Source: a bacterium
GTDB taxonomy: Bacteria > Bacteroidota > Ignavibacteria > Kapaibacteriales > UBA7675
Direction: 5' to 3'
Assembly: GCA_030430495.1 (NCBI GenBank)
Contig: JAUIKM010000011.1
Span: 62,001-126,000 of the forward strand
DNA: 64,000 nt
The translations under genes were made by a program, and so were the position numbers. This document shows, one piece after another, positions 12,079 through 37,811 of the stretch; within the stretch, counting starts at the first letter, position 1, and each line of letters opens with the position of its first letter. The notes beneath the pieces are model-generated. The model saw only the letters and a program-made list of their open reading frames with translations, had not been told where the DNA came from and did not search any database.

Positions 12079-12502
12079 GTAAAATCCGGGCTTGGGTTTA
12101 TGATCGCTCAGAGAATCTGGTCCGTGACCAATGGAGTTTTTTCGGCAAAGGCTTGCCAAAACCGTATGCCGGGCTGAGTCTGACAGAAAGATGGGAATGC
12201 AGAATCAATCCAGCAGTCTGCAATTTACACGCAATACTTCAAATATCAATCACATTTGTCCTGGGCGTCCACGCGCCGCCACACACTGCGGCACGCTTGT
12301 CTGCAAATTCCGCCCGCTCACCCGCGAGATTCCGCCCGGTTAATTTTTTACGCCTGTTTTTCAGCGCATTTGATTGCACCTTGTGCGTGTTGCGAAGCGA
12401 TCTGCGGACTGACCCGCAACAGTCCGCTTCACGACGCCCACGCACTATTGAAGCGCCAAAACAGTCTACAGCGTTTTATCGGAAATTTAGCGCGATTTGG
12501 AC
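12079..12502. other. Divergent intergenic region upstream of mfd
   Basis: It separates the minus-strand LVIVD gene from plus-strand mfd and must hold both promoters. No gene-like frame, strong hairpin or clear promoter consensus was recognised; a TTAATTTTTTA patch at 12341-12351 is the most AT-rich part. Confidence 0.4.
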
Positions 12503-24108: not shown

Positions 24109-25917
24109 TCAGGGCGCTGCAACAACAATCGCCGCATCGTGCGACGCGCCGTTTGAGTTAACGCGCAGAAGGTATACACCCGCGGGAATGTTAACATTGT
24201 CCGCATTCAATTGCGACCATTCCAGGGAGGCCGAACCGGCTGCAAACCAGACCGCGGGACGATGTAACACCTGGCGTCCGTCGCGCGCAAAGAGGCTGAA
24301 TTCAACCTGACCGGCTGTTAACTGCGTCCACTCTATCCGCGCCGCCGAGTTTTGTGCGGCATACAGAGGATGAGGAGCAATTGTCAAATCGATTGTGTTG
24401 TTTAAGGGAGCGTCAATGGAGGTTGAGGGCGATTCTTCGATGACGTGACGGGTGTTAACCGCCATATCGTCGAGCGTCACAACGTCGCCGCTGGGAAATT
24501 CGACCGCAATGTCGGTGATACGTTCGGCGTCGCCGAGGCCAAAGCAGGCTTCCATACAGGACTGCGAGATGGGACCGGAGCGGACGGAGATAACGCGCAT
24601 CTGCTCGACCGTTTCACCGCCGATTTCGGCGCGGACGCGCACCACGGAACCAACGCCAAAACGGTTGGAGCCAAAACCGCGCAGGGCGACTTTCACCCAG
24701 TTGTTGCCGTTGCCCTGGTTGCGATAGAGTTCGTTGTTTTCGCCGTTGCGATTGCTGATATAGAGATCGAGAAAACCATCGTTGTCGATATCCGCCCATG
24801 CTATGCCGGTGGACTCACCGACGTTCTGCGTCATCGGTTCGTCGGTAACGCGCGTAAACGTGCCGGCGTCGTTGCGATAGAGAAAGTTGCGATCGCCGGT
24901 ATTGCTGATGATAAGGTCCAGGTCGGCATCGTTGTCGTAGTCGCCCCAGGCGGCGCTTACACAGGCGCCGCCCTCATTGCTGGGCAGTGCTTCACTTTCC
25001 CAGGCGAAAAAGCCGCTACCAACGTTGCGATAGAGAATATTGTATTCATTGCTGTGAACGAGCAGCGCATCGATGCGACCATCGTTATTGTAGTCGCCCC
25101 AGGCTACGCCTTTAGCGCGACCCTGAATCAGCGGTAGAGCTCCTCCGAGGCGGCGCGTCCAGTCTTTGCGGTTGTTGCGATACATAATATTGGCTTCGCG
25201 GTCATTGAACACGTACAAATCGAGGTCGCCGTCGGAATCGACGTCGATCCAGGAACAACCGCGGCTTTCGCTGCGATCTTCGGTGATTTCAATGCCCTGA
25301 ACGCGGGTAAAACCCTCGCCGCGACTGTTGTGGAACAGGAAGTTGCGCTCGTTGTCGCGATTGACGACTATCAGGTCGAGATAACCATCGAGGTCGTAAT
25401 CGCCGATGTCGCCGTCGAGCGAACTGCCGGCAAACACGCTCTCGTCAATACCGTCATTGACATGCGGTCCGGAGTTGACTTCCTGGAACACTGTAGCCGT
25501 TTCGGGGCCGATATTGATGAAGAAGAAGTTGTGCTGGTAGTCGCGGTTGACGACGTAGAGATCGAGGAAGCCGTCATTGTTCATGTCGGCCCAGAGCCCG
25601 CTCTGAGACATGCCCGGCCGCTCGGTAATGGCAAAGCCGTCGGCATCGATAAAATTGCCGGAGCCGTCGTTGATATAAAAGAAGTTGCGCTCGGGCGCGG
25701 CGGTTGTTCCTTCATTGGAGATGTAGAGGTCCGGGTAACCGTCGTTGTTGACGTCGACCAGGCTACAACCATAGGAATCGCCGCCGTCCTGCACGGAGGG
25801 GTCGTCGAGGTCGCGCACAAACATCTGCGCCGCGGCGTCGGGCGCCACAAGACCGGCAAACACAAGTACGAGCAGGCCGCGCACGATGCCGGCCATTGAT
25901 TTCTGCGCAATATTCAT
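24109..25917 (-). CDS. CRTAC1-like FG-GAP protein with UnbV/ASPIC domain and T9SS tail
   Basis: The product is 602 residues with a signal peptide (GIVRGLLVLVFAGLVAPDAA, cleavage near AAAQ). Seven FG-GAP motifs follow (DVNNDGYPDLYISN, DMNNDGFLDLYVVN, DYDLDGYLDLIVVN, DVDSDGDLDLYVF, DYNNDGRIDALLV, DYDNDADLDLIIS, DIDNDGFLDLYIS). Then comes the UnbV/ASPIC domain (NNWVKVALRGFGSNRFGVGS through ITDIAVEFPSGDVV, about 395-495). The last 80 residues resemble a T9SS sorting domain ending IPAGVYLLRVNSNG. This order is a well-known secreted architecture of unknown biochemical role, predicted to bind calcium. Confidence 0.87.
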   Translation of the reverse strand: MNIAQKSMAGIVRGLLVLVFAGLVAPDAAAQMFVRDLDDPSVQDGGDSYGCSLVDVNNDGYPDLYISNEGTTAAPERNFFYINDGSGNFIDADGFAITERPGMSQSGLWADMNNDGFLDLYVVNRDYQHNFFFINIGPETATVFQEVNSGPHVNDGIDESVFAGSSLDGDIGDYDLDGYLDLIVVNRDNERNFLFHNSRGEGFTRVQGIEITEDRSESRGCSWIDVDSDGDLDLYVFNDREANIMYRNNRKDWTRRLGGALPLIQGRAKGVAWGDYNNDGRIDALLVHSNEYNILYRNVGSGFFAWESEALPSNEGGACVSAAWGDYDNDADLDLIISNTGDRNFLYRNDAGTFTRVTDEPMTQNVGESTGIAWADIDNDGFLDLYISNRNGENNELYRNQGNGNNWVKVALRGFGSNRFGVGSVVRVRAEIGGETVEQMRVISVRSGPISQSCMEACFGLGDAERITDIAVEFPSGDVVTLDDMAVNTRHVIEESPSTSIDAPLNNTIDLTIAPHPLYAAQNSAARIEWTQLTAGQVEFSLFARDGRQVLHRPAVWFAAGSASLEWSQLNADNVNIPAGVYLLRVNSNGASHDAAIVVAAP

Positions 25918-26314: not shown

Positions 26315-27055
26315 ATGACCGACTTAAAACGCACTTTTCGCTTCCCGGCGCTTTTGATGACTTGTTGTTTGTTGGCGGGATTTTCCGTCGCATGTGAAAC
26401 CGAGGACGACGACTGCTACGAGGGCAGCGGCATTCTGCAGACCTACGAGGTGGAACTGGAGGATTTTACGGAATTGCGCATCAGCGGAAGCGCGGACGTA
26501 ATTATCCGCCAGAGCGACACGACTTCGCTGCGCGTGACGACCGACGATAATTTGTTCAGGCGCTACACATTCAAGTACAAGAAGGACGAGTTGCACATTA
26601 CCAACGAAGGCTGCATCAATACGAGTCAGCCGCTGCGGGTTATGCTGACGATTGACGATCTGGACCTGATCACGCTGACGGGTTCGAGCTCGCTGACTTC
26701 GATCGACACGCTGAAGTTTGACGACCTGCAACTGGTGGTTACGGGCACGGCGGACATCAATGTCGACATGATCAACGACGAGCTGGAGTCGACGGTCAGC
26801 GGCAACGCCGACGTGGCGCTGAGGGGCGAATGCGGACTTCACACGGTCCGCGTGCGCGGCAACGCCAGCATCAATGCGGAAGACTACGAAACGGAGCGCA
26901 CGATTATCGACATCTCGGGCAACGCCAACTGCCGCGTCTGGGCGACCGACGAGCTGGACGTCAAGATCTCGGGCACGGGCAACGTGGCATACCGCGGCAA
27001 CCCGCAGGTCGACAGCGACATCAGCGGCGTGGGCAATCTGACGCGCATCCCCTGA
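26315..27055 (+). CDS. Head GIN domain (DUF2807) lipoprotein
   Basis: I use the ATG at 26315; one at 26294 in the same frame adds seven residues and neither has a clear ribosome binding site. The signal (TDLKRTFRFPALLMTCCLLA) ends in a lipobox-like FSVAC. The mature protein opens with an acidic patch (ETEDDDCYEGSG). The rest is the auto-adhesive right-handed beta-helix of DUF2807: ELRISGSADVIIRQSDTTSL, ITLTGSSSLTSID, VTGTADINVD, VSGNADVALRG, VRGNASINAE, ISGNANCRVWA and ISGTGNVAYRG are successive coils of about 18-22 residues. Such proteins are outer-membrane-associated in Bacteroidetes; function is not established. A strong terminator follows 39 bp after the stop. Confidence 0.88.
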   Translation: MTDLKRTFRFPALLMTCCLLAGFSVACETEDDDCYEGSGILQTYEVELEDFTELRISGSADVIIRQSDTTSLRVTTDDNLFRRYTFKYKKDELHITNEGCINTSQPLRVMLTIDDLDLITLTGSSSLTSIDTLKFDDLQLVVTGTADINVDMINDELESTVSGNADVALRGECGLHTVRVRGNASINAEDYETERTIIDISGNANCRVWATDELDVKISGTGNVAYRGNPQVDSDISGVGNLTRIP

Positions 27056-27135: not shown

Positions 27136-27227
27136 TCGGACCTGGAGTGACAGAACTGGTTTGGGCTATGGGTGCGGGCCGCGTTTGTCGTGCGTGAGCG
27201 CGCGGTTAAAAGGCATTGAGTTTAAAG

Positions 27228-27475
27228 CTGGTCCCAAGGTTTGAAGCTGTTCACACACGGTGTGAAGCTGATCACAAGGTTTGAAGCTGTTCACACACGG
27301 TGTGAAGCTGGTCTCTGAGTTTGAAGCTGGTCACACACGGTGTGAAGCTGGTCTCTGAGTTTGAAGCTGGTCACACACGGTGTGAAGCTGGTCTCTGAAT
27401 TTGAAGCTGGTCACACACGGTGTGAAGCTGGTCTCTGAATTTGAAGCTGAACTCTGAATTTGAAGCTGAACTTTA
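27228..27475. repeat. Tandem repeat of a 20-bp unit with a 40-bp palindromic super-period
   Basis: The half-unit TTGAAGCTGGTC plus eight variable bases recurs about twelve times. Every second junction forms the perfect palindrome TCACACACGGTGTGA. It starts at 27251, 27291, 27331, 27371 and 27411, an exact 40-bp spacing. The flanking TTGAAGCTG half-units continue on both sides, degenerate at the ends. The array is non-coding and has no unique spacers, so it is not a CRISPR. Confidence 0.9.
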
Positions 27476-27690
27476 AAATCATTGGTTTTTTGAGTGAAAT
27501 CAAAGGGGCCCCGCCCCCATCCTCCGCCGCCTGCATTTTCACGTCAGACCAGCCTCAAACCCTCCGGCTGCGAACTCAAGGGTTCCCGGATTCGACGGCT
27601 CGAGGCCGTTGTTTTTCGCTCGCGGGTTCCCGGCACGTGCGTCCCCGCTCTGAGGCCATACTACGCACATGGCGCTTGAAAACAATGGCT

Positions 27691-27845
27691 GAAAAACTGA
27701 ACGGTGCCCGGCACGTAGTTGAGCGGGCGATTTTGGACTGTGAACGGGCAGACCGACAACAGACCTGCCGCCTGAAAACTTCAAACCCGCTGACAAACAA
27801 CATCCTCAAAAAGCGAGCGGCGCAACGGAGTGAGACGCGCTGCAA
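27691..27845 (+). repeat. Dispersed intergenic repeat, copy near the ATPase gene
   Basis: GAAAAACTGAACGGTGCC (27691-27708) corresponds to 34771-34790 and 36838-36860. The segment 27777-27800 corresponds to the minus strand of 983-1006, with 23 of 24 bases the same. So two modules that occur apart elsewhere lie together here, as they also do around 36.4-36.9 kb. Confidence 0.6.
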
Positions 27846-34165: not shown

Positions 34166-34589
34166 GGTGATGCAATGCAGCCTGGTTTTCCTTCTGCGTT
34201 CCGCATTCATAACGGTGAACCTGCATTTGGTCCGGTGGTGTGCCGCGAAATTGGGAAGACAATGACGGAAGAGATAGCGGCATTCATATTCGCCGTTTCC
34301 CTGCGCGGGCGTGTGTTCAACAATGATTGACTCGGGGTTCCAGGCTCAACGCCAGGCGTCTGTTTCGCACTGCGCGGAGCAGGCGCTTGTTTGTTTCAGG
34401 TATTAAACATGTTCGGGGCGGCTTCGCCGGCGAACAGGGGCCGGGCGCTTGTCTTTTTTTGCTGCGCCGGCGCGATGGCGGCTTGATGCATGGTATTTCG
34501 AGATGCCGGGCGCAAAGTCTGCAAACTGTTGATTTTTAAGAGGTTAGGGAGGTGCTGGGTCGTAGTGCGTTGGATATTGGGCGTACTTC

Positions 34590-34830
34590 CGGCTAGATCA
34601 AGGGGACCTCCCCGCCGCCGCCACGGGTTAATACCTCCGCGTACAGGCACACTCCTCCCACCCTGCATCGTGTGCAGAATTTTTTTAAGTGCTTGAGTCG
34701 CGGTTTCCAACGCACTGCATGCCGCGCGCTGACACCACAAGCATACACAATCGATCAGGTCAAACCCAGTGTAAAAAGTTGAACGGTGCTTCCGCTGTGG
34801 TCAAGCGGGAGATATTTGCTCCTGAACGTT
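34590..34830 (+). repeat. Dispersed repeat, left copy flanking the Spy-like gene
   Basis: It aligns with about 36660-36900. ACACTCCTCCCACCCTGCA at 34649-34667 is identical to 36718-36736 (19 of 19). A T-rich patch, a CGCACTGCATGCCGCGCGC-like palindromic stretch and GTAAAAAGTTGAACGGTGCT (34771-34790) follow in the same order. The two copies are direct repeats about 2,069 bp apart. Confidence 0.75.
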
Positions 34831-34970
34831 CCGGGCAGTCGCGTCGCGAAGGCAACAATTGCTCGGTCAGTCAAACCATACTTTTCAATGGAAACACACT
34901 GGCGACCTCACCGCACTGCCATTCCAATGAAGCCGCGCACTCGGCGACGCAAACGTCGCCAATAATAAAT

Positions 34971-35006
34971 AAAACGCCCCGCCGACTGATGTCAACGGAG
35001 CGTTTT
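34971..35006 (-). terminator. Terminator of the Spy-like gene
   Basis: On the minus strand AAAACGCTCCG pairs with CGGCGGGGCGTTTT (one bulged region) around an 11-nt loop. TTTATTTATT follows. It lies 35 bp after the stop codon of the gene at 35041. Confidence 0.75.
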
Positions 35007-35040
35007 CAGGAGCAAGTCTTTGCGGCCTGTGCCGAACACT

Positions 35041-36171
35041 TTATCGCGTCAGGACAAACTGACCGCTTTGTGCGCCATTCTGTCCGACAACCCGAAAGTG
35101 ATATACGCCGCTGTTTAAGTTGTATTTGTTGCCGTCCACCGCAAACTCGTGCTCGCCCGCGCTCAGCTGCCCTTCGAACAATCGCGCTACTTCGCGGCCC
35201 GACGTGTCCAGCAGGAATATCACGACGTTGTCGCTCTGCGGCAGGTCGATGCTGATCGTCGCCTGGTTGACCGCCGGATTCGGATACACGTCGATCGCCG
35301 CGTCATCCAGCCCAAGTCCTTCGCGCAGCAATCCGTCATCTGTGGAATTGAAACCGTTCTGCTGATAATCGCCGCCGAACAGTTCCTCCGCCTGGCCGTT
35401 CCAAAAAAAGACCATCGCGAGCGCACGAGGACCCTGGAGCGATTCCAGCCCCATTCCGTGAGGACCGCCGTGATGTCTGCCGTGGCGAGGGTGGCGCATC
35501 ATCCGCCCTTCTTCAACATTAACTTCAGCTTCACATTTTTTCGGCATTTTTTCTGATCCCGCGCTGTTGCGGCATGCCGGAGCTTCGACTGATTCATCGC
35601 CGAGGCGCGCTTTCAAATGATCCAGCCGAGCTTGTGCGTGCTCGCCGGCGGCGGCAATCTCCGTCGCATGCTCGTTTTCCCAGTCTTGCACAATCGACAG
35701 CGCGCCTGCTTTCATCGCGGCTTTTTGGGATTCGCCTTCCTGTTTAATCTGCTGGACCAGATCGGGATAGCGCGCCGTGATTTCTGTTAAGTCCTTGAAA
35801 AAGGACATCATTTCACCGTGTTTGGCCCGCATTTCCTCGTGTCGTTCGCGCATTTCCTCGCGCAGTTCGCGGCGCTCTTCCTCACTCATGTTTTTGAATT
35901 CTTCCATCCGCTCTTTTCGCGCAGCCATGTGTTCAGCGGCTTGCGCGCGCATTTCGTTGAGCCTGGCCAGATCGTCGGCGGACAGGGTCGCATCAATGGT
36001 TTGTTTCCACTGATCCATCGTCGGCGCCATTTCCGTCCGCGCATACTCTCGCAGTTCATTGTGCAATTCCATAACCGCTTCCGAACGCTCGTGCGCCTGC
36101 CCCTGCACAACTGCCAGTAATGCCAGCACAAATCCCGTCACAACTCGAATCGACATTGATGCTACCTTCAT
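35041..36171 (-). CDS. Spy/CpxP-like helical protein with His-rich linker and T9SS sorting domain
   Basis: The 376-residue product has a signal peptide (SIRVVTGFVLALLAVVQGQA) preceded by GGAGTGGAGAG, which fixes the start. Residues 30-190 are strongly helical and charged (MSEEERRELREEMRERHEEM), with a periodicity like Spy/CpxP periplasmic chaperones. A Cys/Lys segment (ACRNSAGSEKMPKKCEAEVN) and a His-rich stretch (MRHPRHGRHHGGPHGMG) follow and could bind metal. The end is a T9SS sorting domain (VYPNPAVNQATISIDLPQSD through LDTSGREVARLFEG to GQFVLTR). The Spy-T9SS combination is unusual. The gene lies between two direct copies of a dispersed repeat. Confidence 0.8.
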   Translation of the reverse strand: MKVASMSIRVVTGFVLALLAVVQGQAHERSEAVMELHNELREYARTEMAPTMDQWKQTIDATLSADDLARLNEMRAQAAEHMAARKERMEEFKNMSEEERRELREEMRERHEEMRAKHGEMMSFFKDLTEITARYPDLVQQIKQEGESQKAAMKAGALSIVQDWENEHATEIAAAGEHAQARLDHLKARLGDESVEAPACRNSAGSEKMPKKCEAEVNVEEGRMMRHPRHGRHHGGPHGMGLESLQGPRALAMVFFWNGQAEELFGGDYQQNGFNSTDDGLLREGLGLDDAAIDVYPNPAVNQATISIDLPQSDNVVIFLLDTSGREVARLFEGQLSAGEHEFAVDGNKYNLNSGVYHFRVVGQNGAQSGQFVLTR

Positions 36172-36408
36172 TTCTCTCCACTCCGGAATGATGAATCACT
36201 GCTTTTGATAGAACAGCTACTTAGAGCATCGCGGCAGGCCATTGGTTTAATCTCAATTCAAGTTTTTCACATTTTTTACGCGGCCTGCTTCTGATCGCTT
36301 TGAGCTCCGCGCTTGCGCTTCTCGCTCAGGCTCTCTTGACATTTTTGCTTGTCATCGAGATCGAATCACTTCAGCGCCATGCCGGCCGCCAGATTGTGAT
36401 GCACAATT

Positions 36409-36464
36409 CACAACCCGGCGACAAACAAGAGAAACAAGCAAGCCGCAACGCGGCGAAGCGCTCA
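36409..36464 (+). repeat. Dispersed intergenic repeat, type D, copy 3
   Basis: CACAACCCGGCGACAAACAA and the following AAGCAAGCCGC and GGCGAAGCGCTCA (36452-36464) match the minus strand of 934-1010 in the same order, with a shorter middle. Confidence 0.6.
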
Positions 36465-36659
36465 TCGGCCAAACAGGCGCGTTCTCAGCCCCTCAGCCTC
36501 CGATCAGGCATGAGAAACGACCGTTTGTGCAACACAAAAAAGTTGACAGCCTGTTACAGCGACAAGTGTAAACGCAAGCAACCTCGCCAGCATAAGTCAT
36601 TGATAATAAAGAAGATAAGGATTTCACACGGCTACATGGGTGACCTGTGGACGCACCTC

Positions 36660-36900
36660 TCCCTTGATCTGGGGCCCACCCCGCCTCCTCCTCGAGACGA
36701 CGATTTTAGCGCTCAACACACTCCTCCCACCCTGCAATCTTCGCAAGTCTTTTTTGAGTGAATCTTCAACGCCTGCCACGCGCCGCATGCTGCGCGCCGT
36801 CATTGCCCAGTCTAACTCTTCTTCCCATTCTTTCCACGTGTAAAAAACTGAACGTAGCCCGAAACGTGGATGAACGCCGCAGTTCAGCCGCTGAACGGAT
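36660..36900 (+). repeat. Dispersed repeat, right copy flanking the Spy-like gene
   Basis: It aligns with 34590-34830, including a 19-base identical block at 36718-36736, a T-rich patch, a GCATGC-centred palindromic stretch, and GTAAAAAACTGAACG near 36840. The last module also occurs at 27691. Confidence 0.75.
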
Positions 36901-37080
36901 GTTTAAAGTGAAAAGTCAATGCGCGAAGCGTACGACGCAAGTCGCTCATCTTAATCAGTATGCCAGAATGCCGGAGTTTAACGGTGGCGACTAAAATCAA
37001 TTCACACAAATGCTGCGGCGGTATAATCCGAACAGTGTAATCCCGCAGCCGGGTTCGTTCAACAAATCCTTTTAAACCAG

Positions 37081-37137: not shown

Positions 37138-37629
37138 TCAGTGTTGCGACGCGCCGGTCGCGACTCCAAATACCTGTTTGTCTTTTGAGATCAGATCGGA
37201 AACGAAGTCGACATAGGGCTGAGCGCCGCCTTTGCGATACCCGAAACGCGCTACCGGACGTCCCGAAGGATCGGCCAGGACAATCGTGGGGTAACCGCGG
37301 ATGCCGTAAATCTCCTGCCAGTGAGCGTTTTGACGCTTCACATCGTCGTCCAGCTGCTTCTTCTTCGGAAAGTCGAGCGACACAAGAACGAGGTTATCAT
37401 CGGCAAAGGCTTTGAATTCCTGCTGCGAAAACACTTCCTTGTCCAGCTTGATGCACCAGCCGCACCAGTCCGAACCCGTGAAGTCGATCAGCATGTATTT
37501 GCCGGAGTTGCTTGCTTCTTTGATGGCCTCGGCCATGTTGGTTCGCCACATTTCACCGCCGCCCGGCATCGTTGCGATGGCCGTCGTCGCTGCGAATAGG
37601 GATACGAAAAGAATCATCATCCTTTTCAT
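37138..37629 (-). CDS. Secreted thioredoxin-like protein with WCGWC active site
   Basis: Two ATGs lie two codons apart; AAGGAG is seven bases from the second (37629), which I use, giving 163 residues. A signal peptide (MMILFVSLFAATTAIATMPG) is followed by a thioredoxin fold with DFTGSDWCGWC; the redox cysteines are at 56 and 59. The segment KLDKEVFSQQEFKAFADDNL and the cis-Pro region RGYPTIVLADPSG are as in thioredoxin_7/DUF255-like periplasmic proteins. It is probably a periplasmic disulfide reductase or isomerase. It stands alone between kgd and a repeat-rich region. Confidence 0.88.
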   Translation of the reverse strand: MKRMMILFVSLFAATTAIATMPGGGEMWRTNMAEAIKEASNSGKYMLIDFTGSDWCGWCIKLDKEVFSQQEFKAFADDNLVLVSLDFPKKKQLDDDVKRQNAHWQEIYGIRGYPTIVLADPSGRPVARFGYRKGGAQPYVDFVSDLISKDKQVFGVATGASQH

Positions 37630-37811
37630 TTTCATTCTCCTTCCATTAACAGAGTAGTAGTTTTACATGTTGTTTTCGAGTGTAATGCGGAGCAAACACC
37701 CGCATACGCCTCCGGGTTCCGCCTGTTGCGCGGAAAACCGCCGCCGCCGGGATGTTGAGGCCGTCCGAATACCGCGACGAATTCGGGGCCGGATCGGTTC
37801 TGGTAGACCCG

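Follow-up and report, generated by a model that had tools for sequence, protein, structure and literature searches.

Do two direct copies of a non-coding repeat on either side of one gene mark a transposable cassette, a site of gene gain by recombination, or the spread of the repeat itself? The question is raised by a locus within a 64,000-nucleotide stretch of a Bacteroidota contig, here called the window, in which an earlier note had claimed aligned direct repeats about 2.07 kb apart around a single gene. We conclude, with a probability of roughly 85%, that the two copies, E1 and E2, inserted independently of each other and belong to a small interspersed repeat that is lineage-specific, non-autonomous and present in high copy number, with no functional tie to the gene. 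The locus has the following parts.

34480-34873, plus strand: repeat copy E1, family A (family profile, match spanning 34460-34873, E 6.3e-82).
36528-36946, plus strand: repeat copy E2, family A, CCTCCTCCTCGAG subgroup, whose closest members by identity rank are two C58 copies (L127) (profile, E 9.8e-70).
35041-36171, minus strand: gene for a secreted protein with a T9SS type A sorting domain (TIGR04183, Por_Secre_tail; order conserved in G002).
37138-37635, minus strand: thioredoxin-like (DsbH-like) neighbour (profile matches; same order in G002).

The direct repeats are real. The 20-nt core, CACACTCCTCCCACCCTGCA, is identical at 34648-34667 and 36717-36736, a spacing of 2,069 bp, and no third match was found in the window at up to three mismatches, with 0 expected in shuffles. 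The core extends to a 44-nt block of 77% identity, a second conserved block (GTGTAAAAA..TGAACG) has the same 2,069-bp spacing, and the modules of the two copies follow in order. Only the gene at 35041-36171 lies between them. Its product scored 31.7 bits against TIGR04183 (cut-off 23) and also matched Por_Secre_tail, and a Pfam search at E 0.01 gave no Spy/LTXXQ family match; the T9SS half of the proposed Spy/T9SS architecture therefore stands and the Spy half is unconfirmed. Half of the 20 relatives (10) have proteins that match the N-terminal part of the product, with identities of 21-30%. The remark that no transposase is visible holds within the window.

The flanking of one gene by direct repeats in the same orientation speaks for a 2-kb repeat-gene-repeat unit that moves as a transposable or recombinational cassette, a reading that four lines of evidence make very improbable. 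E1 and E2 are not sister copies: they are 52% identical across some 330 nt, fall into different subgroups, and hold ranks 51 and 38 among 117 in identity to each other. The gene is single-copy in the genome. The gene order is ancestral in the family, as seen in a genome of the same family but a different genus (G002), where the gene (minus strand) is followed by the thioredoxin (63% identity) and KGD (65%) genes in the order found in the window, and further along by homologues of the window genes at 26372-27055 and 24109-25917; the gene on the other side of the bracketed gene differs between the two genomes. No repeat was found in G002 by any family profile, either genome-wide or in the gap between gene and thioredoxin, which measures 310 bp there vs 966 bp in the window, where E2 sits. 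This order without repeats suggests that the gene was present before the repeats, or at least independently of them. Lastly, the frequency of pairs matches copy density: 5 pairs lay 1.0-3.3 kb apart and 5.8 were expected from random placement of 119 copies. The same four lines, together with the diversity of the genes beside copies, argue against gene gain by recombination between E1 and E2. The outcome set beforehand as telling against a cassette was a relative with the gene and without the repeats, and G002 is such a relative. The bracketed gene is thus a resident and not part of the repeat, and the cassette lead gives way to a repeat family with an unusually clear architecture.

That this family is dispersed and non-coding and has undergone expansion here, the third of the possibilities raised at the outset, is borne out by its numbers. 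The core had 61 matches on both strands of the 5.6-Mb assembly at up to three mismatches, and a reversed control pattern had 0. E1 as a BLAST query found 44 places in the assembly, and a profile of the 3' module gave 111 matches in this genome. Joining the core and 3'-module lists gave at least 119 copies of about 320 bp each; the copy counts are lower bounds because the best candidates per genome alone were scored and because the assembly is a draft in 80 contigs. Beyond these 119 copies, a left half was seen at 16 contig ends, and some of these halves may pair with copies already counted. The members fall into many subfamilies, which share architecture more than sequence. In 40 relatives the 3'-module profile returned chance-level scores only (at most 19 bits, in two of them), and in 394 further genomes of the phylum it found none at 1e-5. 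The repeat superfamily was found only in this genome and, as far as our searches reach, the family is previously undescribed. Two divergent members in the window had been missed in the earlier note.

27495-27777, plus strand: third member, of a divergent subfamily, with 5' module GAAATCAAAGGGGCCCCGCCCCC and 3' module at 27685-27752 (3'-module profile, E 3.4e-13; sequence).
12292-12356, minus strand: fourth member, 3' module only and weak (3'-module profile, E 3.6e-7; 39.6 bits with model R1, C7:74289-74357).

Read 5' to 3', the repeat unit has first a G/C-rich hairpin module, GGGCGTACTTCC-GCTAGATC-AGGGG-NCCA-CCCC-GCCGCCGCCACGG. Downstream of this 5' module is a stem-loop, CACTC-CTCCCACCC-TGC..GCA-TTTTTTT-GAGTG, in which a C-rich strand stands opposite a T-rich strand; it is followed on its 3' side by a near-palindrome around GCATGC and then AAGCTTA. 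The 3' module consists of AAAAAACTGAACG and two further TRARCG motifs at spacings of 22 and 21 bp. In E1 and E2 these parts are placed as follows.

34602-34613, plus strand: E1 5' module hairpin, GGGG-ACCT-CCCC (sequence).
34650-34691, plus strand: E1 stem-loop, in which CACTC/AAGTG forms the outer stem and TGCA/TGCA the inner one, and the internal loop is C-rich and T-rich (27-copy consensus fold; folds of divergent copies).
34780-34828, plus strand: E1 3' module, three TRARCG-type motifs with first bases at 34780, 34802 and 34823, 22 and 21 bp apart (60-copy alignment).
36719-36760, plus strand: E2 stem-loop, CACTC/GAGTG (consensus fold; folds of divergent copies).
36849-36897, plus strand: E2 3' module, three TGAACG motifs with first bases at 36849, 36871 and 36892 (alignment).
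34680-34686 and 36750-36755: T-runs of the E1 and E2 stem-loop regions.

In many copies the 3' module can be read as a peptide, KKLNxAxxVVERxxFAAER, and in the alignment the leucine codons CTG, TTG, TTA and CTA interchange in many copies, as they would in a coding sequence. A coding role is nevertheless scarcely credible. TRARCG persists in each of the three repeats even though the first is out of codon phase with the other two (22 vs 21 bp), the variable positions track the motif rather than the reading frame, and a 1-nt indel is present in roughly one of every seven copies. We rejected the peptide KKLN..VVER..AER as an artefact, given that conservation of the motif holds across two codon phases.

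A stem-loop with a T-run after it, which the consensus fold shows to be conserved in 27 copies, is also what a host-useful element would show, whether a transcription terminator, a 3'-end stability element or a structured RNA under selection. Matching outer stems in some divergent copies point the same way: structural support comes from these few copies, in which the outer stem is kept with other sequence (ACACAGG/CCTGTGT; ATATTC/GAATAT in the C6 copy). Within family A, however, RNAalifold found almost no covariation; the pairs are invariant, and hence neither support nor oppose a structure. Rfam 15 gave 0 matches in the window at the gathering score. The absence of the repeat from the relatives searched and the tandem or IS-broken state of copies at many loci weigh further against a host-useful element. 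We consider such a function unlikely, though it is the strongest of the alternatives.

The position of copies among genes bears on the same issue. Of the 122 3'-module matches found across 823 kb of the genome, 119 are clear of called genes; with a footprint of 250 bp assumed for each match, the other three reach over the edge of a gene. Gene calls came from an in-house hexamer scorer, not a published gene finder, and expectations were computed from free intergenic length; on this basis, convergent gaps hold 29 of the 71 copies with both neighbours called (about 16 expected), co-directional gaps 34 (about 41 expected) and divergent gaps 8 (about 14 expected), a bias with a chi-square of about 13.5 at 2 degrees of freedom. 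A role as a terminator or at 3' ends could also account for the convergent-gap enrichment. In Streptococcus pneumoniae repeats, such an excess has been read as a mark of tolerated parasites (PMC3049150). No tie to a gene class was seen, a further point against a host-useful element: Por_Secre_tail was found in 4 of 70 genes beside copies vs 4 of 70 non-neighbour controls, and the adjacent proteins are diverse, without shared function. The 3' neighbour faces the copy in 43 of 55 cases, and within tandem gene pairs in 23 to 11; copy orientation relative to genes was set aside as a signal, the apparent strength of the 43 of 55 being explained by the convergent-gap excess. Intergenic space, and the gaps between convergent genes in particular, would tolerate an interspersed repeat of this kind, and selection against promoter disruption may shape where its copies persist.

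Many contigs end inside a repeat copy at the same point, and there an IS-like element is inserted, about 16 times in all and always at one exact position within the repeat. The left junctions read (G/A/C)CC/GGTATGTTAAAAAGCAAGG (n=16) and the right junctions TTTAAACATACAGTCT/(G/A/T)CC (n=16), the slash before GGTATGTTAAAAAGCAAGG and after TTTAAACATACAGTCT being the junction itself; every flank is recognisable as a family member, very divergent ones included. The insert exists as two isoforms of about 8 copies each, with the left 49 nt common to both. Examples of the junctions are given below.

Contig ends of G000, e.g. L143:1-122, L095:1-117, L114:1-92, L141:1-125, L155-L170 and L172-L187: junctions of the insert with the repeat.

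Judged from the junctions in other repeat copies (16 left, 16 right), the equivalent insertion point in E1 falls between 34619 and 34620 and is empty. Left and right flanks together rebuild an uninterrupted repeat with nothing added, indicating that no target duplication is made. The inverted ends of the insert are GTATGTT(T)AAAAA, with apparent extensions of 1 and 5 bp. The exact target in a potentially folded repeat, the subterminal inverted repeats and the lack of a target duplication are shared with IS1111-type elements, whose insertions hit a precise position within REP or attC sites (PMC11187229). Unlike the insert, IS1111-type elements have extensions of 7 (occasionally 6) and 3 bp beyond their inverted repeats (PMC11187229). 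The assembly does not contain the transposase of the insert: the search for PF02371 (DEDD/Transposase_20; IS110-type) gave no match, so an IS110-type transposase was rejected among the assembled sequences, the insert body being unassembled. For these reasons we leave the insert outside any named family. Viral contigs gave no match to the end of the insert. RNA-guided targeting would gain support from a DEDD/PF02371 transposase accompanied by a guide that matches CCCCGCCGCC and GCCACGG; if the insert is RNA-guided, its many divergent target copies would show the mismatch tolerance of the guide. The repeat family thus also gives a jumping element a well-defined place to insert, at one exact base step in about 16 places.

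As site-specific ISs are known to target attC sites (PMC11187229), the insert lends some appeal to the idea that the repeat is an integron-like attC site and the genes between copies are cassettes, and stretches resembling RYYYAAC and GTTRRRY can indeed be read in the repeat. These stretches are not mutually complementary, unlike attC arms, and copies are scattered over the genome, mostly far apart. The integron integrase model TIGR02249 had 12 matches, none above the cut-off and all at tyrosine-recombinase level, and matches of that level also occurred in 14 of 14 control genomes. We therefore regard an attC identity as highly unlikely. Two tyrosine-recombinase C-terminal fragments with identical TIGR02249 scores lie in 63-aa open frames (G000:C40:13163-13345 and G000:C1:4559-4741); one is at a contig end, and the pair may be another collapsed repeat.

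In the repeat itself, the longest inverted matches between the two ends of a copy were only as good as those between swapped ends (6.93 vs 6.97; 6.30 vs 6.29 in a second test), giving no terminal inverted repeats. Direct matches just outside the ends of 40 non-tandem copies scored 6.42 for own and 6.14 for swapped ends, giving no target-site duplication, although a short one could be missed as the ends of the repeat are not sharply defined. The Y1 transposase (RAYT) model PF01797 had no match in the assembly, with positive controls; a collapsed copy could be missing from an assembly in 80 contigs. The reverse transcriptase model PF00078 likewise had no match in the assembly. REP elements with a RAYT were rejected on the first of these results, and a retron, DGR or group II intron on the second.

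The likeliest account is that copies of the interspersed repeat would have been mobilised in trans by a recombinase or transposase that binds the TRARCG motifs, the enzyme having perhaps been lost or left unassembled; with a spacing of two helical turns, the motifs could be bound from a single face of the DNA. A fuller version holds that this is a mobile family without inverted ends, spread by a recombinase recognising the three motifs on one helix face, that the stem-loop takes part in the mechanism as RNA or as folded DNA, and that the IS-like insert exploits the same hairpin module; taken as a whole, it is quite unlikely. Local amplification may have proceeded by unequal crossing-over. Tandem copies with a 336-339-bp period occur in three places (L144:4872-5915, L109:3-805 and L133:4851-5534), and these units and other close repeats are consistent with either unequal crossing-over or duplication on the spot. 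In each of the 19 pairs of copies less than 3.3 kb apart, both copies have the same orientation; that of the 14 pairs under 0.8 kb fits tandem duplication, and that of the five pairs at 1.4-3.2 kb could hint at something beyond chance. At L127:12785-13255, a 118-bp unit with part of the 3' module stands in four tandem copies beside a full copy.

By these features the family resembles the pneumococcal BOX repeats or REP repeats, being modular, apparently stem-loop-bearing and enriched between convergent genes. Like BOX, RUP and SPRITE of S. pneumoniae, it is small, intergenic and confined to one lineage, with a convergent-gap excess and extensive secondary structure, and like BOX, whose length varies by tandem modules, it is modular (PMC3049150). 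It differs from all three in phylum and in its modules, a C-rich stem-loop and three TRARCG motifs, the comparison being one of description, not sequence. With REP/BIME it shares more than 100 copies per genome, an extragenic location and use as a precise IS target (PMC1525189, PMC2817692), whereas a REP is a short palindrome whose spread involves a Y1 transposase (RAYT) and the units here are about 320 bp, in an assembly where no Y1 transposase was found. The BrickBuilt MITE of Porphyromonas gingivalis is likewise intergenic, has a leader/tail organisation and contains direct repeats some 22-23 bp long, but has terminal inverted repeats matching an IS (PMC4596501), of which none was found in the repeat here. 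In MITE terms, the length (about 320 bp, within 50-1000 bp), the high copy number (at least 119) and the non-coding nature all agree, and the terminal inverted repeats and target-site duplication do not.

Minisatellite arrays lie beside some copies. Of the 34 intergenic arrays, 24 lie near a copy, on the 5' side of 17 copies and the 3' side of 8, an excess that is only modest since about half of all intergenic sequence falls within such near-copy zones. Several copies have an array directly 5' of them, with units of 17-41 bp and differing sequence, at these places.

Window 27225-27468; L110:4765-4948; L097:4866-4933; L119:4456-4718; L166:160-645: minisatellite arrays by copies.
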